Below the pieces are notes generated by a model. That model ran no database searches and was not told where the DNA came from. It saw only the letters and a program-made list of their open reading frames with translations. A DNA stretch of 64,000 bases from an uncultured Prevotellaceae bacterium (GTDB lineage: Bacteria; Bacteroidota; Bacteroidia; Bacteroidales; Bacteroidaceae): positions 1 through 64,000 of the forward strand of contig CADCEQ010000004.1 of NCBI GenBank assembly GCA_902800435.1, given 5' to 3'. Each line of letters begins with the position of its first letter. Positions within the stretch are counted from its first letter, which is position 1. Below, piece after piece: positions 20,358 to 30,586 of the stretch. Both the position numbers and the translations under genes were made by a program.

Positions 20358-20431
20358 GGCGGGATAGCTCAGCTGGTTAGAGCGCATGATTCATAATCAT
20401 GAGGTCGCCGGTTCAATCCCGGCTCCCGCTA
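20358..20431 (+). tRNA. tRNA-Met (anticodon CAT)
   Basis: 74 bases. The acceptor strands GGCGGGA and TCCCGCT pair (G1-U72 wobble). D arm GCTC..GAGC, anticodon stem CATGA/TCATG with loop TTCATAA, T arm GCCGG TTCAATC CCGGC, discriminator A; CCA is not encoded. The acceptor does not have the initiator mismatch, so it is an elongator Met or a tRNA-Ile2 that is modified at C34. Its last 44 bases form the attL side of the integrated element, which restores the gene exactly. Confidence 0.92.
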
Positions 20432-20432
20432 C
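20388..20432 (+). repeat. attL: left 45-bp direct repeat, inside the tRNA 3' end
   Basis: Bases 20388-20432 are identical to 29815-29859. The repeat covers the anticodon loop to the discriminator base plus one. Bases on both sides diverge at once. Confidence 0.95.
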
Positions 20433-20452
20433 AAAAGAAAAGTTCTGAAAAT

Positions 20453-20484
20453 GAGGGACTTACAACAAAGTAAGCCCCTTTTTC
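20453..20484 (+). terminator. Terminator at the element's left end, serving the tRNA
   Basis: Stem GGGACTTAC / GTAAGCCCC (20455-20463 with 20470-20478; one mismatch), loop AACAAA, then a run of T. It lies inside the element just after attL and replaces the original tRNA terminator, which is now at 29869-29903. Confidence 0.7.
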
Positions 20485-20504
20485 TTTGCCCTAAAATTAA
20501 GGCG

Positions 20505-20528
20505 GTGAAAGTTATGTGAAAGTTCACT
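20505..20528. repeat. Left arm-type repeat (GTGAAAG motifs)
   Basis: Two GTGAAAGTT motifs followed by CACT. The 24 bases are identical, and in the same orientation, to 29681-29704 near the other end. Position and repetition suit integrase arm-binding sites. Both copies are followed within about 10 bases by TTTTAACGG. Confidence 0.7.
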
Positions 20529-20735
20529 TTGTCTTTTAACGGCTTTCGCTTTTCCTGCCTTTTGACTCGATTTTCCTGATTTCTCGGCGAAAAGTCGCCC
20601 TCTCACCCGCGCGCGCGTAAGTCATTAAAAGGGTGTTGAGTGAATGGACACCCCCAGCGTGAAAAGCGAAAGAAAGGGGCGGGTATCTCACGACAGCCGT
20701 CCCTCGGGGTATATGCACAAAATATGAAAGAGTGA

Positions 20736-20933
20736 TTACAGTATTATAACTTTTCTGCCCTCGATGCTGATTAGTTCCAAGTCGCGCATTTCGTTTCGTA
20801 TGTCTCTGGCCTGTCTGGGGTGTGTGTGGTGATACCCGCACAAAAAAGTTTCAAAAACGCCCACGTCGGTCTCCTTGCGTCCATGGTGCCGTATGTACCA
20901 CGCGATGCACTCTTGTAATTTATCGTCGGTCAT
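20736..20933 (-). CDS. Small winged-helix-like protein of unknown function
   Basis: 65 residues starting MTDDKLQECIAWYIRHHGRK. The start codon overlaps the TGA of the preceding gene (ATGA at 20930-20933), which decides this start over a longer upstream frame. The helix-helix-helix-strand pattern ending in DLELISIEGRKVIIL looks like a winged helix (the last segment as the wing), but I do not recognise a family. Last gene of the four-gene operon at the left end of the element. Confidence 0.6.
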   Translation of the reverse strand: MTDDKLQECIAWYIRHHGRKETDVGVFETFLCGYHHTHPRQARDIRNEMRDLELISIEGRKVIIL

Positions 20934-21304
20934 TGCTCTGGCTGCTCCTTTGATGGCCTGCCGATTTTGTGGGGCAGGATTTTTGTTCCGATGTAGTACA
21001 GTTCGCTTGTCGCGCTCTTCTTGAGGAGATTCTGGCGAATTGCGCTCGCGAATGCCCAGCGGCTCAATTCGGCGCGCCATTTCTCAGGGAATCCGAAGAA
21101 GGATGGGTGATGCTCAATCAGCTCGCGAAATTCAGTCTCGGGCTTTGGTTCTTCGACGTGAAGGCGCAATAACCTGTCGTTTCCCTTCCAATAGAAAAGT
21201 GCGACGGTGTCCTTCAAAATCCGTCGGACATCTGACTGACCAAATGACACTTGCAGCGAGATCTCGTCGCTGTCGATGCTAATTTGCTTGTTCCGTAATA
21301 TCAT
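20930..21304 (-). CDS. Element cargo protein, unknown
   Basis: 124 residues, MILRNKQISIDSDEISLQVS onward, with a basic C-terminal tail (KILPHKIGRPSKEQPEQ) that looks able to bind DNA. No catalytic motif seen. It overlaps the previous gene by ATGA (21301-21304) and the next by ATGA, so all three are translationally coupled. Function unknown. Confidence 0.6.
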   Translation of the reverse strand: MILRNKQISIDSDEISLQVSFGQSDVRRILKDTVALFYWKGNDRLLRLHVEEPKPETEFRELIEHHPSFFGFPEKWRAELSRWAFASAIRQNLLKKSATSELYYIGTKILPHKIGRPSKEQPEQ

Positions 21305-21573
21305 GCCTCTCGCGATTTTAAAATTATTTCGACTAAATGCTGGACGTGTTCAAGCTGTTCGTGCAAGGTGTGGCGAACTGCCGCCGCCTCGGACTTCGTG
21401 TAATACTTCTCGGCGTATTTCTGCTGGCATTGGCACTGTTCTTTATAGGACTCCAGCCATGCGGGAGTGACCTGATTGATGTTCGTCAGGGCCACGTTGG
21501 GAACCATCCGCAGCTGCTCAAACGTTAGAAGCCCGTCGAGTTTCGAGATAGTTCGTGTGTCTTGTTTAATCAT
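21301..21573 (-). CDS. Element cargo protein, small helical, unknown
   Basis: 90 residues, mostly helical. The C-terminal half (about 43-90) has heptad-like spacing compatible with a coiled coil. No family recognised. It is 12 bases downstream of the 125-residue gene and coupled to the next. Confidence 0.55.
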   Translation of the reverse strand: MIKQDTRTISKLDGLLTFEQLRMVPNVALTNINQVTPAWLESYKEQCQCQQKYAEKYYTKSEAAAVRHTLHEQLEHVQHLVEIILKSREA

Positions 21574-21585
21574 TGTCGCAAATCT

Positions 21586-21963
21586 TTAGACGTTTCCCTT
21601 AAATACAAGTCGCTCGATGTTCTTTGAATACAGGCGGTCGGCGGCCTCGATTCTCGCGCGCTCCTGCGCCCAATCCTGAATCATGTCGACTGCGCTGGCG
21701 GGTGCTGCCTTCCCTGCTCTCTTGCAGACTGATTTCAGTTCTTCTTCCAGCCGTGTCGTCACGTCGCTCAGGGTGTCACCGTCGCCGACTTCGATGTGAC
21801 GCTGGGCTGACTCCAACAGCAGTTCATAATCGTCGGACAGTCGGTATTTGTCGCTAATACGCTGTGCGGCCTGCTCTTTCAGGTTGTCATACTTCGCGGC
21901 CTTCATGGCTGCAATCTCGTTCTCAAGTGCGCTAATACGCGAAAGCATTTCTTGTTCTAACAT
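21586..21963 (-). CDS. Element cargo protein with N-terminal coiled coil, unknown
   Basis: 125 residues from the ATG at 21961-21963 (MLEQEMLSRISALENEIAAM). A longer frame exists but the promoter at 22003-22010 lies inside it. Residues 1-25 form a likely coiled coil; the rest is helical and charged. First gene of a four-gene operon running to 20736. The size and coiled coil are also compatible with a small phage-type DNA-packaging or scaffold protein, but nothing identifies it as such. Confidence 0.6.
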   Translation of the reverse strand: MLEQEMLSRISALENEIAAMKAAKYDNLKEQAAQRISDKYRLSDDYELLLESAQRHIEVGDGDTLSDVTTRLEEELKSVCKRAGKAAPASAVDMIQDWAQERARIEAADRLYSKNIERLVFKGNV

Positions 21964-22002
21964 TTTACACAAATTTAAGTGAATAATTATTTGAATTTGA
22001 TG

Positions 22003-22010
22003 CAAAGTTA
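22003..22010 (-). promoter_or_regulatory. -7 box of the left-end operon of the element
   Basis: Minus-strand TAACTTTG, about 40 bases before the ATG at 21963. Confidence 0.65.
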
Positions 22011-22141
22011 GTGCTGATGAGACTGGGATGCAAGGGATTCTTTCGGAAAATGCAGAAAAAACCGAAAACATATTGCAGGAGTCAGCAGGAGGGTGGGGTT
22101 TCTTGCGAAAAATTGAAAAATCTCGGCGCAAGGTCAGTATG

Positions 22142-22176
22142 CCCCTGGCTTTTTGCAAGGGGGGGTGTAGGGGTGT
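22142..22176. other. Hairpin beside G-rich tract, possible oriT
   Basis: Inverted repeat CCCCTGGC / GCAAGGGG around TTTTT (22142-22162, one mismatch), running into seven G, TGTA and four G. A hairpin followed by a G-rich stretch is reminiscent of transfer origins of Bacteroidetes mobilisable elements. This is a suggestion only, because no relaxase gene is present. Confidence 0.3.
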
Positions 22177-22219
22177 TACTTTATTAATTCAAAACATTGT
22201 TAAATAATCGGCTAATTGT

Positions 22220-22250
22220 TTTGAGTTACCGATAATTATTCCTACCTTTG
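22220..22250 (+). promoter_or_regulatory. Complete promoter of the 49-residue gene
   Basis: -33 TTTG (22220-22223), a 19-base spacer and -7 TACCTTTG (22243-22250): the best promoter in the element and the only plus-strand one. Transcript leader about 110 bases. Confidence 0.8.
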
Positions 22251-22307
22251 CGCTCGTTAGGCCGCAAACGCGTAAGTCCAGTATAGTATCGTTCTGAAAA
22301 GTAAAGT

Positions 22308-22336
22308 GAGGTGAAGTGAAGTGAGGTGAAGTTCAG
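22308..22336 (+). repeat. GTGAAG/GTGAGG repeats in leader
   Basis: GTGAGGTGAAGTGAAGTGAG followed by GTGAAGTTC in the leader of the 49-residue gene. It is purine-only, and could be a ribosome-binding or protein-binding tract. Confidence 0.55.
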
Positions 22337-22367
22337 TTCTATTGTATAACTTAAAAAACAAAAGAAT

Positions 22368-22517
22368 ATGAATTATTTAAATATTGAAAACAAAGAATAT
22401 CGTGAACACCTCGCAAATGTGTATCTCACAAGTGTAATAAAAGACGAAATTGAGTTCTCTAAAATGAACTTGCGTCTGATTAAGGATGCTGCAAGCATCT
22501 TACTTCGTGAAGATTAA
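22368..22517 (+). CDS. 49-residue protein of the element, unknown
   Basis: MNYLNIENKEYREHLANVYL, then TSVIKDEIEFSKMNLRLIKD and AASILLRED. No family recognised; helical and charged. Supported as a real gene by a consensus promoter upstream and an intrinsic terminator just downstream. It is the only gene of the element on the plus strand, divergent from the left-end operon, where regulators (repressor or anti-repressor) are often placed. Alternatively the transcript acts as an RNA. Confidence 0.55.
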   Translation: MNYLNIENKEYREHLANVYLTSVIKDEIEFSKMNLRLIKDAASILLRED

Positions 22518-22534
22518 TTAGTATGGATAAAGAA

Positions 22535-22568
22535 AAAGCCCCATCTTTTATTAGGTGGGGCTATTTTG
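22535..22568 (+). terminator. Intrinsic terminator of the 49-residue gene
   Basis: Stem AGCCCCAT / GTGGGGCT with loop CTTTTATTAG, then ATTTT. Confidence 0.75.
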
Positions 22569-22766
22569 GTAGTTGTCTTAGACTCTGGTGTAATTACGAA
22601 AAATCCTGAAACGCTCATTTTCTTTGTCTCTGAGCGTTAGTTTGTTACAGGTGTGTACATTGTCAAGGAATTAAACAAAACGCGCTCAGAAGGGCAGGAA
22701 GCGGCCAAAAATCAAAAATAAAGCCCCACCGATGAGGCAGGGCTGGGAGTGTTGGCGGGTAGTTGG

Positions 22767-23498
22767 CTATTTGGCGTACCTTTCAAGGAGTCTTTTTACC
22801 TGCATGGGTTCGAACTGCTTGCCCTTGCTGGTCGTGAAGCCGTTGGAGTTCAGGAATGCCGCGAGTGCCCTGAGTGTCGCTTTCTCGCCCTTACTGTTTA
22901 GGTAGGCGATGTGGCCTTGCACTGCTGCGTAGGCTCGGCGGTTAACGTCGCTGTTGTCAGCCTTCATCCGATGGACTGCTGCGGCATTCTCTGCGCCCCT
23001 GGCTCTCATGCTGCTGGCCTTCTGCCTTGCTTCCTCTGTGTCGGCGGTGAAGGTCGGGTTTCCTAACTGCTTGCCCTGCTTCTTGGCTTCTGCCAGTGCC
23101 TGCTTCGTGCGGATGCTCGTAATAAGACGCTCGCGCTCATGGATAGCGAAAAACAATGTCAGCGTGAATCTGTCACTTGCGGGCAAATCACAAAAAATGA
23201 CGTTACCCTCGCCCATCTCGTCCAATATCTGTAGAGCCTGTTGGCAGTTTCGGAGTCGGTCAGTTTTAGCAATAATTAGAGTGGCCTTTTTCTCCTTTGC
23301 CTCCTTCATGGCTTCGTGGAGTTTCGGGCACTTGTCGAGGTCTTTGCCGCTGTGTGCCTCGCAGTAGTCACTTACGATTGTTCCCCCATCCATAGCAACA
23401 AAATAGTCGATGATGGTTTTCTGGGCTGCAAGACCTAAGCCTGACTGACCCTGACGCTGTGTTGAAACTCGCCTGTAAGAAATGAATGTCTTTGCCAT
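22767..23498 (-). CDS. Serine recombinase (resolvase/invertase family)
   Basis: 243 residues from MAKTFISYRRVSTQRQG (ATG at 23496-23498; the upstream part of the frame contains the promoter). The catalytic Ser lies in YRRVSTQRQG. The downstream motifs AKTDRLRN and FFAIHERERLITSIRTKQAL fit the resolvase N-terminal domain with its E-helix, followed by a C-terminal helix-turn-helix region (RALAAFLNSNGFTTSKGKQF). Such small serine recombinases resolve cointegrates or invert segments. No paired inversion sites were found nearby. It is a second recombinase in addition to the tyrosine integrase. Confidence 0.88.
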   Translation of the reverse strand: MAKTFISYRRVSTQRQGQSGLGLAAQKTIIDYFVAMDGGTIVSDYCEAHSGKDLDKCPKLHEAMKEAKEKKATLIIAKTDRLRNCQQALQILDEMGEGNVIFCDLPASDRFTLTLFFAIHERERLITSIRTKQALAEAKKQGKQLGNPTFTADTEEARQKASSMRARGAENAAAVHRMKADNSDVNRRAYAAVQGHIAYLNSKGEKATLRALAAFLNSNGFTTSKGKQFEPMQVKRLLERYAK

Positions 23499-23525
23499 AA
23501 CTCTAAGTGTTTTAGTTTTACGTTG

Positions 23526-23533
23526 CAAAGATA
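23526..23533 (-). promoter_or_regulatory. -7 box of the serine recombinase
   Basis: Minus-strand TATCTTTG, with a TTTTG about 16 bases further upstream. Confidence 0.65.
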
Positions 23534-23657
23534 CAAAATAATTCTGTAACAAAACGTATTTGTTCGTTTACTATTTGTTATTTTATATTATCTTAACGCA
23601 AAGTAAAGGGATATTTAGGTTTGTTTACTAAATACCCCCTTTTGATGGCGAAGGTGT

Positions 23658-23786
23658 TCACGGCTTCTTCTTCCGTTGTTCTTCGATGTATTTGAGTACT
23701 GCGCCCGCCGCTCCCCTAAATTGGGGGTCTTTCAGTTTTTTCTTTGCGTCGGCCTCAACCTTACTAAAGGCATCTTTCTTTTTCAT
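23658..23786 (-). CDS. 42-residue basic protein, unknown
   Basis: MKKKDAFSKVEADAKKKLKD, then PQFRGAAGAVLKYIEEQRKKKP. A longer frame exists, but the -7 box at 23808-23815 lies within it and fixes this start. Very lysine-rich, likely nucleic-acid binding or structural. Function unknown. Confidence 0.5.
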   Translation of the reverse strand: MKKKDAFSKVEADAKKKLKDPQFRGAAGAVLKYIEEQRKKKP

Positions 23787-23807
23787 AATCAATTCCTTTT
23801 GATGGTG

Positions 23808-23815
23808 CAAAGATA
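23808..23815 (-). promoter_or_regulatory. -7 box of the 42-residue gene
   Basis: Minus-strand TATCTTTG, 22 bases before the ATG. Confidence 0.6.
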
Positions 23816-23823
23816 GTAAAAAT

Positions 23824-24039
23824 TCAGGTAATAACCAAAAGTCGGTTTCTTGATGGCTTTCTCCTGGGCTTCCCAAAAGACACCACGCCCAGCTGTTTGC
23901 GCTTGATTCCTTCGCAGATAATTTTGGAAATTTCCCGCTGTGAGAAACCGCATTGCGTGAGTATGGCGTCCAGTTCGTGGACAGCATAAACTTGACGCTC
24001 ATACTCATTGCGGATGGCTTCAAGAATCTCGTCGGGCAT
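23824..24039 (-). CDS. 71-residue protein, unknown
   Basis: MPDEILEAIRNEYERQVYAV onward, ending in a basic tail (GKPRRKPSRNRLLVIT). The internal FSQREISKIICEGIKR looks like a helix-turn-helix. The ATG at 24037-24039 is chosen over an in-frame TTG at 24043-24045. It begins two bases after the stop of the upstream 73-residue gene. Confidence 0.55.
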   Translation of the reverse strand: MPDEILEAIRNEYERQVYAVHELDAILTQCGFSQREISKIICEGIKRKQLGVVSFGKPRRKPSRNRLLVIT

Positions 24040-24041
24040 AC

Positions 24042-24263
24042 TCAAAAAGGGGCTGTTAAACTTTCGACTACTTCTCGCGCCTTGCTCAGGTGTCGGGACG
24101 CAAGTACAAGCTCGTCGATGGCTTCCTGCATAGCGTCGCGGGTGTCTTTGGAGTCATGCTGCTTGCGGCAAATTTCAAGTGCGCTGATTGCCTGATAAAT
24201 AGGTCTTTCAACCGATTCAAAGTCAATCGTCGGAATTGTGGTAACTAATTCTTTCTTTTTCAT
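24042..24263 (-). CDS. 73-residue helical protein, unknown
   Basis: Begins MKKKELVTTIPTIDFESVER; the rest is two long helices with acidic and basic faces. No family recognised. It follows the VirE-N gene by 38 bases and is coupled to the 71-residue gene. In related mobilisable elements this is where a mobC/relaxase pair is often found. Confidence 0.55.
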   Translation of the reverse strand: MKKKELVTTIPTIDFESVERPIYQAISALEICRKQHDSKDTRDAMQEAIDELVLASRHLSKAREVVESLTAPF

Positions 24264-24301
24264 AATCTTTTTTGTTTAAATTGTTAATACTATTGTTTAT
24301 G

Positions 24302-25522
24302 CTAAAATGGTGCGGCGGGGTGCTGTGCCTGCCATTCTGCGACTGCTTTAGGGCTGAGAAACTCGTCGAACTCCTGGGCGGTCAGCGAGTCGATGATGCT
24401 GCAGGGGTCGGGCAGTAATGGGCGGTAGACTATCCGCTGGGGTACAGCCTTAACCGTTGCCGATGCTGCTGCCGATGGTGGCGGCGGTGCGGTGGGTGTC
24501 GGCGGTGCGGGAGTGAAGGTGTCGGAATCCTTGTACCTTATACCGTTGTCGCTGCAAATTTTAAAGAATGTGCCGATGTTCACGTTTGGGCGGTTCTTGT
24601 TCTTTTGCCACTTATACTCCGTTTCCCTTTGATTGAACTTTGAGTTAAAACGGCTCAGGCGCATATAATACTCTTTTCCAGCGTCGCCAAGGCCGTTGAA
24701 AAGTGCGGCGGCAATATCTACCCATTCTCCGTAATCTGACGTTATATCGAGCATTCTGCGCTCAATTTCTTCGACGCACTTCTGCACTGCAGCCTCGGTG
24801 TCGGTTGCTGGGCGGTGGTGGGCGTAGTTCCTTTGGGGTGTCGTTGTGGTAGGGCGTTTCCTTACTCTGAACACTTCGGCGGTCTCGTTGACATACGGCT
24901 GCGGGTCGAAGCTGACGAATCGGGGGCGTGTCAAGTCTTTCGTCGCTGGGTCGATTGTGAGTTTCAGATGCTCCCTAAAAAGGTAGTCCAGATAGGCCCA
25001 TGCCTCTGCGTGTCGGCGGCAGTCCTCTATCTCTATTATAACGAAAAGTCCATGATTCCCGACTGAGCGCGCAATATAACTCACAAAAGGCAGTTGGCTG
25101 AGTTTCCGCTTAATGGCCTCCCAGTCAGTCACCCATTCGTTGGGTACTTCCTTTCCTGCCGCTCTCACTTGTGCGGCTCGGCTGGGCTTTGTCGCGTCAA
25201 TGTCGAGTGTTAGCAGGTTGGTTGGCTGCTGCAGGTCGGCTAATAGTCCACCATTCGCAAACGTGCCACCGATGGCCGCAAGTGGTAGCTCCCTTTTCCC
25301 CTGCTTATATATTTCCTCATATCTCGCACTCGCGGCGGGGTCGCTGTCGAATGTCTGCAGCATGGAGTCGTACACCTGCCGCAGGTAGTTGATGGTTGGC
25401 AGATAGTCTTTGCCAGCGTCAAGGAACTGCCGCAGGGGTACTTCTATCTTGTTGTTTGCAGTGCGGGTGGTGGTGCTCCAGACGCTTAGTTGTCGGTCAA
25501 ATACATTTTCCATACTATCCAT
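24302..25522 (-). CDS. VirE-N (BT4734-like)/primase-type replication protein
   Basis: 406 residues. The N-terminal half matches the BT4734/VirE N-terminal domain common in Bacteroidetes mobile elements: LPLAAIGGTFANGGLLADL, LLTLDID, SVGNHGLFVIIEIED and RPRFVSFDPQPYVN, which is also the pattern of archaeo-eukaryotic primase-like folds (acidic LDID). The C-terminal part contains a primase-C-terminal-like segment (DYGEWVDIAAALFNGLGDAG) and a Pro/Ala-rich tail. It probably primes replication of the excised element with the adjacent RepA-like ATPase. Confidence 0.78.
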   Translation of the reverse strand: MDSMENVFDRQLSVWSTTTRTANNKIEVPLRQFLDAGKDYLPTINYLRQVYDSMLQTFDSDPAASARYEEIYKQGKRELPLAAIGGTFANGGLLADLQQPTNLLTLDIDATKPSRAAQVRAAGKEVPNEWVTDWEAIKRKLSQLPFVSYIARSVGNHGLFVIIEIEDCRRHAEAWAYLDYLFREHLKLTIDPATKDLTRPRFVSFDPQPYVNETAEVFRVRKRPTTTTPQRNYAHHRPATDTEAAVQKCVEEIERRMLDITSDYGEWVDIAAALFNGLGDAGKEYYMRLSRFNSKFNQRETEYKWQKNKNRPNVNIGTFFKICSDNGIRYKDSDTFTPAPPTPTAPPPPSAAASATVKAVPQRIVYRPLLPDPCSIIDSLTAQEFDEFLSPKAVAEWQAQHPAAPF

Positions 25523-25525
25523 TTA

Positions 25526-25660
25526 GTGAAATTGTCAGTTGTCTTGAAACTTAGTCTTTAGTTGGTGGTGAAAATGGGGAATATATTATATATATATTCA
25601 CCCCCATGTTTCACCTTTTCCAACATGGTGAAATTTCACTTGTTTTCACCATTTCACTAA
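25526..25660. other. Repeat-rich AT region, candidate replication origin
   Basis: It contains a long imperfect inverted repeat (25567-25615; GGTGAAA... arms around an AT-rich centre) and at least six GTGAAA/TTTCAC motifs in about 130 bases. It lies between the RepA-like ATPase and the primase-like gene and extends slightly into the former's 3' end. Iteron-like repeats by an AT-rich stretch between replication genes suggest an origin. Confidence 0.5.
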
Positions 25661-26791
25661 CTTGTAATCTTTTCCGTTTTTCAGAAGTATTTTGTCGGTG
25701 TCAGTTGCTATCTTTATCCAGCTCTTTGCCGTGCGGTCAGTGACTTTGCACTTGCTAACTATTTGGGAAACTATATCGGTGTACCGTAGTATCTTATCCC
25801 CCATAATTTCCTCAAAAAGTTCCCTTCTGCAATCTCCTGTTTTTCCTCCCGCTTCACTTAGCAGCTCGAACGGAACTCGATTACCTGTTGCCGTGAACGT
25901 GAAAGAGTCGGTGTTCATACGCAATTCGATGCTCTCGGACTTGAAGTCACTGCCAAGGTAGTTTCCCTTCACGCAACAAAGATGGCGGATGTCGGGATCT
26001 GATTTGTCTTTCAGGAATAAGAAGCAGGCTCTTGCAATAGCCTCCAGACTCTGACTGCCGACAAGGGCGTTTTTCGTCGGCGTGTTGTTCTCCTGTCCCT
26101 TGCCGATATGGTGAAGGAACACCACGCAACACTGATTCTTTCTCGCCAGCTCGTTGAAGGGCTTCACGAAGGCTCTCACCTGTGCTGAATTATTCATATC
26201 TTTTCCACTGAAAAACTCAGCGAAAGAGTCTATAATGATTAAGTCTGCTGGTGTGGTAGAGAGTCGGTCGGCCAGCCGTTCGATTAGGTTTTCAGACTCA
26301 AATACAAACTGCAGTCCCCTCCAAGATTCTGAAGCGTCCCTGTAAAAGAGATTGTGTCGTTTCAGTAGGTAGTTCGTAGCCGTTTTGTCGTCCTCGCCCG
26401 ATGCGTATAGTACTGACCTGAATCTTCCCCCAAAAGGATAGCCAAGGAAGTTTCGCCCAGTTGCCACATGGATAGCAAGGTTTCGGAGGAACATTGATTT
26501 TCCTGCATCACTCTCACCACCGAATACGACGACACCGACCTGGGGAAGTATGGGGTCGTAGAGCGTCGGCAACTTCGTGTCGGGCATTGCTAATAAGTCT
26601 GCAGCACTTACCCACGCCGATTCCTCCTGACTCTCCCGATATTCTCCCAGCAGATTCTTGATGTCTGCATCTTTTTCGTCAAAATCCTTGCGAGATTCAG
26701 ATTTTTGTCGTAAATTTGCGCTCGGTAAATCAGGTGTGAACACTTCAGGGGCGGCGGCGAAGGACGGTGCTGCCTTTTCTTTTTGTGTCAT
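25646..26791 (-). CDS. RepA-like AAA ATPase / replicative helicase-type protein
   Basis: 381 residues. Walker A in VVFGGESDAGKSMFLRNLAI (about 82-101), a Walker B-like LIIIDSFAEFF, and a CVVFLHHIGKG sensor, in the arrangement of RepA/RecA-type AAA_25 ATPases. A C-terminal winged-helix-like part follows (about 320-381, KVTDRTAKSWIK). In plasmids and mobile elements these hexameric proteins unwind DNA at the origin. The gene starts two bases downstream of the helix-turn-helix gene and precedes the primase-like gene. Confidence 0.82.
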   Translation of the reverse strand: MTQKEKAAPSFAAAPEVFTPDLPSANLRQKSESRKDFDEKDADIKNLLGEYRESQEESAWVSAADLLAMPDTKLPTLYDPILPQVGVVVFGGESDAGKSMFLRNLAIHVATGRNFLGYPFGGRFRSVLYASGEDDKTATNYLLKRHNLFYRDASESWRGLQFVFESENLIERLADRLSTTPADLIIIDSFAEFFSGKDMNNSAQVRAFVKPFNELARKNQCCVVFLHHIGKGQENNTPTKNALVGSQSLEAIARACFLFLKDKSDPDIRHLCCVKGNYLGSDFKSESIELRMNTDSFTFTATGNRVPFELLSEAGGKTGDCRRELFEEIMGDKILRYTDIVSQIVSKCKVTDRTAKSWIKIATDTDKILLKNGKDYKLVKW

Positions 26792-26793
26792 AG

Positions 26794-27075
26794 TCAGCCC
26801 TCCTTTCTTATTTTTAAGTCGCTGTCTTTGTAGAAGATTTTTCCACCGATTACGGTCTTCTTCAGGAGGCCGTCACGATTCCACCTCCAGAGTGTACTTT
26901 TGTCGACTCGATGACGCTTCGCAAATTCGGCTGGCGTGTACGTCGGTTCTTCTTGCTTCTGCAGTTTTGCAGATGCTTCCACAATCAATGTAGCCGCAAA
27001 TTCCTGCAGCATGGTTGGCGTTACCATTAAAAGGGTGTTGCCGTTGTCATTGTTGAGCAATTCTTTAATCGCCAT
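26794..27075 (-). CDS. Excisionase-like helix-turn-helix protein
   Basis: 93 residues. The C-terminal half (about 45-90) reads YTPAEFAKRHRVDKSTLWRW and GLLKKTVIGGKIFYKDSDLK, the helix-turn-helix plus wing of MerR/excisionase-type proteins. It likely acts as a recombination directionality factor or as a regulator of the replication genes, with which it forms an operon. Confidence 0.78.
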   Translation of the reverse strand: MAIKELLNNDNGNTLLMVTPTMLQEFAATLIVEASAKLQKQEEPTYTPAEFAKRHRVDKSTLWRWNRDGLLKKTVIGGKIFYKDSDLKIRKEG

Positions 27076-27165
27076 TTTTCTTGTCCCCTGCAGCTTTATC
27101 CCTTAACGCTCCGGGTCACTCAGGGGCGGTCGTACAGTCGGCGCGTTAACCGCTGTTTAACGGTG

Positions 27166-27173
27166 CAAAGATA
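27166..27173 (-). promoter_or_regulatory. -7 box of the HTH-ATPase replication operon
   Basis: Minus-strand TATCTTTG with a TTG about 20 bases upstream. The leader of about 90 bases includes the inverted repeat CGTTAA.CGCTG / CGTTAACCG around 27140-27165, a possible operator. Confidence 0.6.
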
Positions 27174-27260
27174 CAACTGCTTTCGTCTGGGTGCAAGAAA
27201 ACAAATGCGGACAAATGCGACCTTCCGCAAATGTCCGTACTTTTCTGCCTCTCGGTAGTG

Positions 27261-27902
27261 CTATTTTATTGCATTTTTCTGAATTTGGGTTAAGGGTTCA
27301 AACTCTTTTCTTACCCGATGGAAATCTGATTTCCTAATAACATCTGGGAACTTCTCATTAAAATCATTGTATGTTGGTGGCGGTAGAGTTGGGTCGTAAA
27401 CCATCCTAAGAATTGCCCTGACTACTGCCGTACCACACTGCCCTCTGAATATCTCCTGTGCTTCTTCCAGCTTCCCATCCTTCCACCATTTTGAAACCGA
27501 TTCCTTTGTGCCAGGAATGTGCTTTTTCGCTATCTCTATTACATCCGTAATCTCTTGCCATGTATCTTCGAAGGCTCTCTTCAGATTCCTCATTGCATCG
27601 AGGGCCATACCGTCGGGTACGCGAAGAGGCTCAAAAAGCATTTCGTCGATAACGTCCAAATGATACTGAAACTTATATTCTGAATTGAGAATGTCCAATT
27701 TCATTTTTATGCTCTGGCTATCCGAACAAATCTCGCTCAGAATTACTTTCGCGTCTATCTTCCATAGGAGTTTGGTTGTTGCGTAGTCTATCAGCGACGC
27801 AAGACGTTCCTCTTCAAGTCCCCCTGCACCATCCTTCTGCACAGCGCGCCAAACCGTAATGGCCGTACCCATCATTCCTATATATTCTATTGTTTTTGTC
27901 AT
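27261..27902 (-). CDS. Element protein of unknown function
   Basis: 213 residues, soluble and mixed alpha/beta with many acidic and aromatic residues (VDEP-like stretches; WWKDGKLEEAQEIF). I do not recognise a family. It starts three bases after the small helix-turn-helix gene and is the last gene of the integrase transcript. In this position other elements carry accessory replication or cargo genes. Confidence 0.55.
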   Translation of the reverse strand: MTKTIEYIGMMGTAITVWRAVQKDGAGGLEEERLASLIDYATTKLLWKIDAKVILSEICSDSQSIKMKLDILNSEYKFQYHLDVIDEMLFEPLRVPDGMALDAMRNLKRAFEDTWQEITDVIEIAKKHIPGTKESVSKWWKDGKLEEAQEIFRGQCGTAVVRAILRMVYDPTLPPPTYNDFNEKFPDVIRKSDFHRVRKEFEPLTQIQKNAIK

Positions 27903-27905
27903 ACT

Positions 27906-28160
27906 TCATTCTCCTTTCTTAACCCAATTAACTAAATCTCTCTCAAAAAATAACAATCGTTTCCCGATTTTCCTGTGAGGAATCTGCCGAGAAAACTGAT
28001 ACAAAGAATTGTGCGGAATCCGCAGAAACTCCGCTGCCTCCGCTGAGTCCATCAGTCGGGATGGAAATAACCTGTCAAGAAGCTCGTCGTCCTTCTTTAT
28101 CTGCTGAATGATGTTCCTTGCCACCAAATCGGCCAGCCGCTCAAGTTCGTTATTTGTCAT
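27906..28160 (-). CDS. Excisionase-family helix-turn-helix protein
   Basis: 84 residues from MTNNELERLADLVARNIIQQ; its ATG overlaps the integrase TGA (ATGA at 28157-28160), which decides the start. Residues 37-80 read MDSAEAAEFLRIPHNSLYQF followed by IPHRKIGKRLLFFERDLVNW, the standard DNA-binding domain of Bacteroidetes excisionases. Co-translated with the integrase. Confidence 0.8.
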   Translation of the reverse strand: MTNNELERLADLVARNIIQQIKKDDELLDRLFPSRLMDSAEAAEFLRIPHNSLYQFSRQIPHRKIGKRLLFFERDLVNWVKKGE

Positions 28161-29572
28161 ACCTTCTTCTTTGTTAGCATCAATATAAGTTGCGCCCGTT
28201 CCTCGTCGTTCAGATTGCAAACGAAGCTGCTGAGCTTGTCACCGTCGCCGTCGTTTAAGTTCAGCAGTTTCGAGTTATACTCCAGCTGTTTCTTTATCGG
28301 GTAGTCGTTTATATAGAGCATCGTTGTGCCGCCAGCTGTAGAGTGTCCCATCGCGTCGCTGATATACTTCAACGGGACTCCCTGCTGCTGCAGGTTGGTG
28401 GCAAAGCTATGCCTGCACCATGTCGGCGACGGTTGCTCCGACCATCCCAGCGAGTTTGTCAGTTTGCGGACGTGCTTCTTCGTGTTTTGGTTCACCTGCT
28501 GAACACGACGTGCTTTTTCTTTGTCCGTGGTGGCATCTTTCAGGATGAAGGGGAACAATAGCCCATCGGGTTCGTACTCTGCCGCCAGAGCGTCGATAAT
28601 GGCCTGCAGGGGGGACGTTATTGGTATTATGACTTCTGAGTCATTGTCGGTGCGGTCTTTTGTTTTCAGCCGATTGAACTGCAGGGACTTCCGACCACTG
28701 AGGACGTACTGCTTGTTATACGTCAGTCGCGCCATGTCGGCCATGTTGAGGCCATTTGCAAGGTACATGAAAAGGAACATTCCAAGATATGTATGAGTGT
28801 CCTCCTTATACTCGTCCGTCCATTCGTCAGGATAGGACTTGTTTGTGAAGATGTCATATAACTGCGTCCACTGCTCCACGTTGAGACATTCCTGCTTCCT
28901 GCTCTTGCCTCTTGGTATTGATACTTTGTCGGCATCTTTTTCAGAAAACGGATAGTTCGCGCGCAATATGAAACCACGCCGAATACATTCGTTCACCACG
29001 ACACGGGAACTCCTTAGATAAATGCCGATGGTGGCTTTTGCCTTGCCCTCGTCCGTCATCCCCTGCACCCACCGATGGATGGTGTCCTTCGTGACGTTGA
29101 ATCCGTCTGACTCGCTGAAGCCAGCCAGACGAATGAAACTCTTTAGGGCTATCCCGTAGCTCGCTGCAGTGCCGTGTTTCTTGCTTTCAATAACTTCCCG
29201 CCATACCGTCAGGAAATTGGCGGTAGCACTTCTTCCCGTCAGGCTTGCGCGAATTGCGTCAAGGCTTAACGTTGTGGCCTGTGCAAGTTCTTCCAGACGC
29301 TGCCGATATGCCTCAAATGTGCCCTGCCATTCCTTGTTGAGGCTGGCGTCTGACGCTTTCTCCTTCGACATCTTGCCGCGTGTTGTGCTTGTCTCGCTGA
29401 TTCTCTCAAACTCTTCGTCGGTGGCCCTCCAGCTCAACGGATAATAGAGCGTTCTTCCACCGATTACATACTTCATGCTTACCCGATACCCGTCTAGGTA
29501 CATCTTGCGCCTGTCCAGCCCCAAACTGACCGAACAGCTGCCGACTCTCGCTGTGAATTTACTTTGTGCCAT
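28157..29572 (-). CDS. Tyrosine recombinase (integrase) of the element
   Basis: 471 residues. N-terminal arm-binding and SAM-like core-binding regions (about 1-220), catalytic domain (about 235-430). Visible active-site blocks: RHSFATNLQQQG (Arg, His), DAMGHSTAGGTTMLYIN (His and the nucleophilic Tyr). The block that normally carries the first Arg reads YLANGLNMADMARL and lacks it, as in IntDOT-type enzymes. It sits 240 bases from attR with arm-type repeats in between. The start is the ATG at 29570-29572. Confidence 0.9.
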   Translation of the reverse strand: MAQSKFTARVGSCSVSLGLDRRKMYLDGYRVSMKYVIGGRTLYYPLSWRATDEEFERISETSTTRGKMSKEKASDASLNKEWQGTFEAYRQRLEELAQATTLSLDAIRASLTGRSATANFLTVWREVIESKKHGTAASYGIALKSFIRLAGFSESDGFNVTKDTIHRWVQGMTDEGKAKATIGIYLRSSRVVVNECIRRGFILRANYPFSEKDADKVSIPRGKSRKQECLNVEQWTQLYDIFTNKSYPDEWTDEYKEDTHTYLGMFLFMYLANGLNMADMARLTYNKQYVLSGRKSLQFNRLKTKDRTDNDSEVIIPITSPLQAIIDALAAEYEPDGLLFPFILKDATTDKEKARRVQQVNQNTKKHVRKLTNSLGWSEQPSPTWCRHSFATNLQQQGVPLKYISDAMGHSTAGGTTMLYINDYPIKKQLEYNSKLLNLNDGDGDKLSSFVCNLNDEERAQLILMLTKKKV

Positions 29573-29604
29573 AATCTGATATTTTAGTATATTTCTCCTA
29601 TTTC

Positions 29605-29704
29605 GTGAAAGTTGGTGAAAGTTATCGCCTATTTACGTCCTCGGAAATCCCCTGTTTATCGGCTTTTCAGAGTGAAAGTAGTGAAAGTTATGTGAAAGTT
29701 CACT
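29605..29704. repeat. Right arm-type repeats (GTGAAAG motifs)
   Basis: Five GTGAAAG motifs: two at 29605-29623, one at 29672, two at 29681-29699. Bases 29681-29704 are identical to 20505-20528. Located between the integrase start and attR. Confidence 0.7.
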
Positions 29705-29814
29705 ACCGATTTTAACGGGTTTTATCCGATTTTGTTTGATTGCGCAAAATTACTAAATATCTGATAATCAGCCAAATTTAATTGCGACTAATTTTGTATT
29801 TTTGCATTATTTAA

Positions 29815-29859
29815 GATTCATAATCATGAGGTCGCCGGTTCAATCCCGGCTCCCGCTAC
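29815..29859 (+). repeat. attR: right 45-bp direct repeat
   Basis: Exact copy of the last 44 bases of the tRNA-Met gene plus one. Upstream bases are unrelated to a tRNA, so it is not a functional tRNA. Confidence 0.95.
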
Positions 29860-29903: not shown

Positions 29904-29968
29904 CGTTTTCAGGCTTTGCTCAGCGAAGCAATTTGCGCTCCGCAAACAGGTCGTCCAAAGTGACAAAA

Positions 29969-30478
29969 CGATGACACCGATGACGATGACACCGATGACA
30001 GTGGGCATATTTATTCTAACCAACAAACCGAAAAGGTAGTCATTATTTATATTATTATATATAATAATATAAATAATGCTCTGTAAAAAGCAGCCGACAG
30101 CCGCGAACAGAGAAAAATAAATACCCCCGCTGTCATCGGTGTCATCGGTGTCATCGCTTCCGAGAGGGAACGCGCCACACGCACTTAGAAATATAAATGC
30201 CCACGCTGTCATCGCTGTCATCGTCATCGCTGTCATCGTTTCCGAGGGGCCGCCAACCACACAGAAATATAAACGCCCCCCGCTGTCAGCGGTGTCATCG
30301 GTGTCATCGTTTGTGTTCTGTGTATGTATATGCCTGTGTTTTAATATGTTACGCCTCAAACCGCGCCAATCGATGACGATGACACCGATGACAGCGGGGC
30401 ATATTTATCCTTTTCCCAGCCATCGCTCCGTCCAATCGATGACGATGACACCGATTACAGTATGGGTATATTTATTCC
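29969..30478. repeat. Six-copy family of GATGACACCGATGAC repeats
   Basis: A unit of CGATGAC/ACCGATGAC 9-mers followed by (C/A)AG.GGGC-ATATTTAT occurs forward at about 29969-30014, 30371-30409 and 30437-30478, and inverted at about 30115-30156, 30188-30238 and 30264-30309. Inverted copies end in TTTCCGAGGGG-like strings. The 727 bases between attR and gph contain no convincing gene; the ORFs there are by-products of the repeat. Confidence 0.85.
30041..30078. repeat. Perfect 38-bp AT palindrome
   Basis: Arms of 19 bases each (30041-30059 and 30060-30078) with no spacer; all A/T except the outer C/G pair. It lies between repeat copies of the surrounding family. Confidence 0.9.
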
Positions 30479-30586
30479 TATAGCAGCCCCGCCCGGCCCG
30501 AACCAGGCGGGTTAGCGCGGCCAAGTGTGCCTGATAGTGCGGCTTAGTGTATGGCTTAGTCGGCGCAATCTGGCGGCTTGCTACGG

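Follow-up and report, generated by a model that had tools for sequence, protein, structure and literature searches.

In a 64,000-nucleotide stretch of DNA from an uncultured Prevotellaceae bacterium (contig CADCEQ010000004.1, positions 1 to 64,000; hereafter the window), a tRNA-Met gene carries a discrete unit of 9,427 bp (about 9.4 kb), the subject of this work. The unit is bounded by an exact 45-bp repeat, the attL core at 20388..20432 and the attR core at 29815..29859 (both + strand, spacing 9,427), and the identity stops at both edges of the core with no extension on either side. The core spans the 3′ part of the tRNA-Met gene, from the anticodon region to the end; the intact copy (CAT) is kept at attL (20358..20432, + strand, by ARAGORN; 20358-20431 by Rfam RF00005), and the displaced 3′ part lies at attR, where a tyrosine integrase gene (28157..29572, − strand; PF00589, E=2.3e-10; phrog_1, E=3.7e-29) adjoins the core. 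Direct repeats, an integrase at one end and an intact tRNA gene, as expected of an integrative element with a tyrosine integrase and a tRNA target, are all present, and the GC content of the element is 47.6% versus 53.0% (1-20357) and 56.4% (30600-64000) in the flanks. Between the cores lies a near-terminal repeat pair (20505-20546 and 29681-29722, 86% identity), and the octamer GTGAAAGT occurs seven times on a single strand, at 20505, 20516, 29605, 29615, 29672, 29681 and 29692, and on neither strand of the whole 64-kb window outside the two ends of the element. These words may be the arm sites of the integrase, two of them in a left arm-type region (20499..20546, + strand), to which left ends in genomes G649 and G247 are similar, and five in a right arm-type region (29605..29722, + strand). 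An earlier reading of the letters and open reading frames (ORFs), hereafter the sequence-only reading, had claimed these core repeats, the integrase near one end and the arm repeats, and all are borne out with the arm words confined to the element ends.

The host locus agrees with an insertion. Among 12 relatives fetched from 267 matching genomes, a set without a same-strain or surely same-species pair, all 12 have the START_2 gene beside an intact tRNA-Met, and a blastn search (E<=1e-8, at which a strongly diverged element could escape) matches the element body in none of them; the empty site called for by the sequence-only reading is thus found in every fetched relative. The nearest relative found, G649, has a START_2 protein 98% identical and flank DNA 89-92% identical. 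Just past a tRNA-Met gene that is itself intact, G427 and G633 have DNA that aligns with the right-hand flank of attR, at 84% over 95 bp and 89% over 63 bp respectively; each of these spans takes in the identical 45-bp core. In G649 (locus L119) a left-end alignment of 195 bp at 85.6% identity starts within the core, contains the arm words and then ends, and this piece is a scar or remnant of a related element.

Read from right to left, the element encodes the integrase, an HTH_17 protein, p213, a second HTH_17 protein, an AAA_25 ATPase, a primase, three small ORFs and a serine recombinase, then, after about 0.8 kb in which that strand shows no likely gene, the tightly packed or overlapping group p125-p90-p124-p65, all on the − strand; this is the order that the sequence-only reading had given, now backed by ORFs and profile scans. 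The first helix-turn-helix protein, HTH1 (27906..28160; PF12728, E=1.6e-07), whose ATG, placed by eye, overlaps the integrase stop, is an excisionase/AlpA-like candidate. The second, HTH2 (26794..27075; PF12728, E=8.6e-06, just under the Pfam cut-off; phrog_66), is HTH_17/MerR-like and has a 63% identical counterpart in G247. Replication would be served by the RepA/DnaB-like AAA_25 ATPase (25646..26791; PF13481, E=1.1e-27; 49% identity in L001), a likely replicative helicase, and by the primase with BT4734-like_N and PriCT-2 domains and a conserved C-terminal tail (24302..25522; PF08707, E=4e-12; PF08800, E=4.7e-11). PADLOC also matched the primase to RTasVirE-PriCT2 (E=3.5e-24) and PrimPol (2.5e-15), models of proteins associated with defense-associated reverse transcriptases (DRT) and CRISPR; a role of this kind was rejected, since no reverse transcriptase or Cas family match occurs in the element, and the primase is therefore read as an ordinary element primase. 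Beyond it lie s73a (24042..24263) and s73b (23824..24045), small ORFs without a significant match, s42 (23658..23786), a small protein with a 68% identical counterpart in L207, and the small serine recombinase of the invertase/resolvase type (22767..23498; PF00239, E=1.4e-16; start placed by eye), with homologues in L024 (35%), L185 (34%), L207 (56%) and L211 (42%).

The distal group begins with p125 (21586..21963) and p90 (21301..21573), neither with a significant family match, followed by p124 (20930..21304), a recurring protein with a GRP(S/K) tail and homologues in L001, L172, L185 and, in all, 16 of 398 genomes, and by the small protein p65 (20736..20933), whose ATG, an internal one of a 114-aa ORF chosen by eye, overlaps the p124 stop. 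The p124 model (predicted local distance difference test score, pLDDT, 79) has helices and a C-terminal beta hairpin and best resembles winged-helix domains, a likeness that is not decisive. On the opposite (+) strand, 22270..22517 holds a 19-base leader, GCGTAARTCCAGTWTAGTA (22270-22288), before a 49-aa ORF (22368-22517). The leader motif is common to the window and L172:2842-2860 at an element end in G247; its chance expectation in the window is 0.03 at up to 3 mismatches, with the motif defined from the same two sites, and the pattern has six candidate IMG/VR matches.

Of the proteins without a family, p213 (27261..27902) is the largest. A family search gave no significant match, its model is essentially all helices (pLDDT 80; predicted template modelling score, pTM, 0.55) and a structure comparison with this model also gave no match. 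Among its 22 homologues, P0043-P0046 keep the conserved C-terminal domain of about 70 residues and have the N-terminal part replaced, which suggests domain exchange. No p213 homologue was detected in the loci compared, and the protein in its place in L024 is dissimilar; p213 is therefore no constant component of the family described below.

No gene for self-transfer or packaging could be recognised. Window proteins were scanned against Pfam, PHROGs, NCBIfam and PADLOC, including a hand-assembled set of 64 ORFs from the ORF list (Pfam and PHROGs, E<=0.05) and six larger proteins scanned separately, and neither the scanned proteins at large nor the 64 ORFs gave a relaxase, type IV secretion or capsid match; the helix-turn-helix of HTH2 was matched weakly by terminase small subunits in PHROGs (E 0.017 and 0.022). 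The claim of the sequence-only reading, that a tRNA-Met element has a replication module but lacks a recognisable relaxase, therefore survives the profile search proposed with it, and no relaxase hit emerged to contradict it. The usual HUH relaxase fold requires a beta sheet, so p213, modelled as all-helical, is unlikely to be a typical relaxase.

The primase relatives show that the tools can find a relaxase where there is one. Public proteins include the near-identical P0001 and 14 relatives at 45-72% identity (P0002-P0015), and P0016 resembles the window primase in the C-terminal tail only. Primase relatives lie at 18 places in 17 of 399 genomes, at five of which a relaxase lies 0.5-1.8 kb downstream (PF03432 in G362; PF01076 in G003, G061, G118 and G167); the search tools therefore do detect the canonical arrangement. 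At two more places (G183 and the second place of G270) a relaxase lies 11-14 kb off and was counted as non-adjacent, and several of the relaxase-less places are near contig ends. The likeness to mobilisable elements asserted by the sequence-only reading holds for some of the primase relatives only.

Relatives of the whole layout occur elsewhere. L001, from the Prevotellaceae metagenome-assembled genome RUG12178, has an integrase, two HTH proteins, an AAA_25 ATPase (49%) and a primase (41%), with a p124 homologue at the far end (33%, E=5e-16). In G247 one contig has a 72% identical integrase adjoining the same tRNA-Met core, and a second contig has a left end in which tRNA-Met is accompanied by similar DNA (82%) and by a homologue of p124; no overlap joins the two contig ends, which presumably belong to one element. 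The genus to which G247 and also G001, the source of L001, belong was searched with a p124 profile, which gave 19 places spread over 16 of 398 genomes (about 4%). Thirteen regions were fetched, weak matches included; G247 C39 and C26 and G001 were already covered, and G494 (two places) and G771 were left out.

Six of these relatives are bounded by direct repeats. L185, a second complete element in G247, has a 17-bp repeat equal to the 3′ end of a tRNA-Arg (spacing 9,481); L208 has 17 bp at a tRNA-Lys (9,182), L209 has 22 bp at a tRNA-Val (9,200), L207 and L213 have 19 bp (7,647) and 29 bp (7,200) with a common target core at another site, and L215 has 21 bp at the 5′ end of a tmRNA (6,686). 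Three further loci (L206, L211, L214) are cut by contig ends, and L210, L212, L216, L217 and L218 have no accepted repeat; a 16-bp repeat in L216 (8,101), a second one in L208 (16 bp, promoter-like sequence) and the 15-bp repeats of L209 were not accepted as att sites. Repeats of 15-16 bp arise without an att site, so the 17-bp cases L208 and L185 rest on their fit to a tRNA 3′ end. The p124 gene is at the integrase-distal end in the window element and in all six relatives, and the sizes range over 6.7-9.5 kb, on which account an argument for packaging from constant size was abandoned.

Within this layout, which stays constant, the primase, the ATPase and their neighbours are swapped between members. 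L185 runs integrase, p257, HTH2 (53%), DUF3987, a DUF6371/Zn-ribbon protein, p139, serine recombinase (34%), p217 and p124 (30%); its scan gave PF00589, PF12728 and PF13148 (DUF3987), the last in this relative only, and the DUF6371/Zn-ribbon protein retains at its C-terminus the tail seen on the window primase (34% over 131 aa). Proteins like p217 separate the replication genes from p124 in L185, L207, L209, L210, L211, L213, L215 and L001, with no significant family match for p217 in the members scanned; L208 has other proteins in this position, which in the window element is taken by p125 and p90, without detectable relation to p217. The 54 proteins of the six relatives (45 from five relatives at E<=0.001, and nine of the L185 element at E<=0.05) matched no relaxase, terminase, capsid or type IV secretion family. 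The 45-protein scan, which excluded the nested ORFs L208:6143-6409 and L213:5661-5891, ORFs of the other strand and those shorter than 75 aa, returned integrases, HTH_17, resolvases, AAA_25, primase domains, DUF6371 and DUF6291, and single matches to RusA, Kinase-PolyVal, DUF4468 and ABC_tran. No PF03432 or PF01076 match, the two families that the genome-wide relaxase search covered, lies on a contig bearing a p124 locus in the 16 genomes, several such contigs ending near the locus. Three traits would set these elements apart as a distinct family: p124 at the far end, a primase type that changes in front of a conserved C-terminal tail, and the variety of insertion sites.

Apart from the family comparison, BT4734-like/PriCT-2 and DUF6371 proteins share the primase tail (window 24302-24530; P0016; L185:7608-8843), which ends in PF, despite their differing catalytic parts; this tail may resemble that of single-stranded DNA-binding proteins.

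Based on these findings, we propose, as the likely explanation, that the window element belongs to a helper-dependent family of small integrative, replicating elements. The part of this proposal carried by the sequence is the attL/attR-bounded unit in tRNA-Met, the putative arm-type repeats, the relatives in other sites and species and the failure of the scans to recognise a relaxase or virion gene. Helped by an HTH_17 protein as directionality factor, the integrase would probably excise a 9.4-kb circle, which the AAA_25 helicase and the BT4734-like primase would replicate and in which the small serine recombinase may resolve multimers; the distal genes with p124 could regulate the element or exploit a helper, and transfer would proceed via foreign machinery. 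Relatives of similar layout occur in related species, so the element probably travels on someone else's machinery; natural transformation or mainly vertical spread, the other conceivable fates, are rather unlikely. Because the p124 family has well-defined ends and a protein that marks it, and is present in about 4% of the genomes sampled from one genus, it makes testable how integrated elements without relaxase or packaging genes move.

The best reading places the element among the cryptic integrated, primase-bearing elements, a class already published, with an economy like that of the PICMI satellites. In the excerpts of the papers cited here, the class iii cryptic elements with archaeo-eukaryotic primases are likewise integrated, with att repeats often at tRNA genes, a primase and no conjugation or phage genes (PMC5862659), and the profile scans of the att-bounded, primase-bearing window element found neither conjugation nor phage structural genes. 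That analysis covers PrimPol-PV1 primases, whereas the window primase is BT4734-like, a type named there as outside its clades; the recurring distal protein and the substitution of a DUF6371 protein for the primase are traits of the p124 family of which no mention was met in the excerpted parts of the paper (PMC5862659). Titles and abstract openings of the literature yielded no paper recognised as describing the p124 family or Prevotella satellites. The excerpted accounts of NBU1, NBU2 and MTnPi4, mobilisable elements of Bacteroides and Prevotella, agree with the window element in the tyrosine integrase and the tRNA gene targets, and most Prevotella intermedia MTn types carry relaxase, primase family and integrase genes (PMC5704250, PMC4755523); NBU1, NBU2 and MTnPi4 carry a relaxase, whereas in the window element profile scans recognised none, of the NBU type or other.

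Several observations, however, weigh against this proposal. Excision, the circular form and transfer of the window element are steps that we infer. In L212 and L214 the p124 homologues stand close to G2P-like replication proteins (Phage_CRI; L212:2506-4223, L214:9508-10870) within a different set of genes, in elements of another type; G2P is a nicking enzyme with HUH chemistry, and therefore "relaxase-free" is too strong for these two. L217 and L218 are weak p124 matches with little other support. The serine recombinase had no match in L210 and L212-L218 in a panel search, the repeat-bounded L213 and L215 included, and its similarity in L208 is a 72-bp stretch only. Searches by tblastn with the p124 of L207 in 50,697 phage and 72,556 plasmid records and with the p217 of L185 in the phage records gave no match, and protein-based IMG/VR scans with the serine recombinase, primase, ATPase and p124 gave no family member and one distant partial primase match (L002, 29%).

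As to the helper, we lean slightly toward a phage over a conjugative element. It is a fair possibility, short of probable, that the element is a phage satellite, whose helper phage would induce excision and package the replicated element, the p124 genes being the helper interface. Such a reading draws on the gene economy of the PICMI satellites of Vibrionaceae, which in the excerpted account likewise have an integrase, an HTH_17-type regulator, a primase, few unknowns and no capsid genes, and whose search model accepts PF12728 as the AlpA-type HTH (PMC10803314). In PICMI115 the integrase, alpA, one further small gene and the primase serve excision and replication and the remainder comes from the phage, so few genes suffice for a satellite (PMC10803314). 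The window element has the integrase and AlpA-type HTH of that model (PF00589, PF12728), and L185 has PF00589, PF12728 and PF13148, all families of it; in G247, moreover, there are three p124 loci, yet neither PF03432 nor PF01076 is matched in the draft genome. The differences are that PICMI satellites live in another host phylum, measure 6.1 kb against 9.4 kb, carry another primase family (DUF3987/DUF5906, against PF08800/PF08707 with AAA_25 in the window) and lie beside fis rather than in tRNA-Met (PMC10803314), and that no helper is known for the window element. Against packaging also stand the lack of a phage or IMG/VR record of the family in the searches above, the lack of a terminase or capsid gene in the scans and the variation in size from 6.7 to 9.5 kb. 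That p124 and its frequent partner p217 mark minimal Prevotellaceae phage satellites of about 7-9.5 kb, which swap primases and keep a phage-interface module away from the integrase, is a speculative extension that we consider unlikely as it stands.

A relaxase-free mobilisable element of the iOriT type, in which a co-resident conjugative element would lend its relaxase and pore to a cis-acting origin of transfer (oriT), is also a tenable, if minority, explanation. The iOriT elements are a recognised class, integrative, without a relaxase and borrowing transfer proteins, as the window element would, and, according to the excerpted text, conjugation in trans would need no more than an oriT (PMC11389934). 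In favour are also the relaxases just downstream at the five primase places and a PF03432 or PF01076 match (E<=0.001) in 12 of 15 genomes searched. Against it count the other three (G247, G771 and G776), drafts searched genome-wide for these two families, which had neither. The difference from iOriT elements is that no oriT was identified in the window element, within a limited DNA comparison: in one run against 15 genomes, matches of at least 100 bp fell in related elements (G247 C6 and C26; G547 C3), in integrase-end regions (G633, G644) and in the left-end piece of G649. A possible oriT sharing at 20674-20705 was rejected, the short match in G586 lying beside chromosomal-looking genes (by eye) rather than a mobilisation region.

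It is improbable that the window holds a decaying mobilisable element that has lost its mobC/relaxase segment. The stretch past the primase is indeed where the relaxase lies at five of the 18 primase places, but the main window genes are all open in the ORF list, and six repeat-bounded relatives, whose genes have diverged and whose insertion sites differ, share the layout without a relaxase, which therefore seems to be maintained. Least credible is the option, once left open by the sequence-only reading, that one of the several family-less proteins is an unrecognised relaxase, for they are at most 213 aa long, p213 is modelled without the beta sheet of HUH relaxases and has no match in the compared loci, and the scans of the 64 ORFs and six larger proteins gave no such match.

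Some further records touch on these elements. L021 and L022, listed as "Bacteriophage sp." from fecal samples, were rejected as proof of packaging: their primases are distant (32% and 25%), L021 shows by eye chromosome-like genes beside an integrated element, and L022 has integrase, HTH and primase without structural genes; the window integrase matches two further "Bacteriophage sp." records at 27%. L023:6086-14873 (NZ_OY725764.1), listed as a Parabacteroides plasmid, is a chromosomal-looking piece with housekeeping genes, and its element has integrase, HTH, DUF3987 and BT4734-like genes and a Fic gene, with no relaxase annotated. The longest contig measured 9.3-10.9 kb for 6 of 22 p213 clusters, 2 of 8 p124 clusters and 2 of 16 primase clusters, and was longer for 1 of 22, 1 of 8 and 5 of 16; this bin was picked after the numbers were known and without a null comparison, and the pile-up at element size, which could reflect a circle or assembly breaks from strain variation, is given little weight. 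G644 (L069) has a 55% identical integrase and a tRNA-Met-like core, and there genes that by eye are AlbA-like, ParA-like and DnaG-like take the place of the replication module of the window element. To the right of attR, clustered GATGACACC-type repeats occupy window positions 29964-30480; similar copies are scattered over many places in G541 and some in G649, and this is therefore a dispersed chromosomal repeat outside the element.

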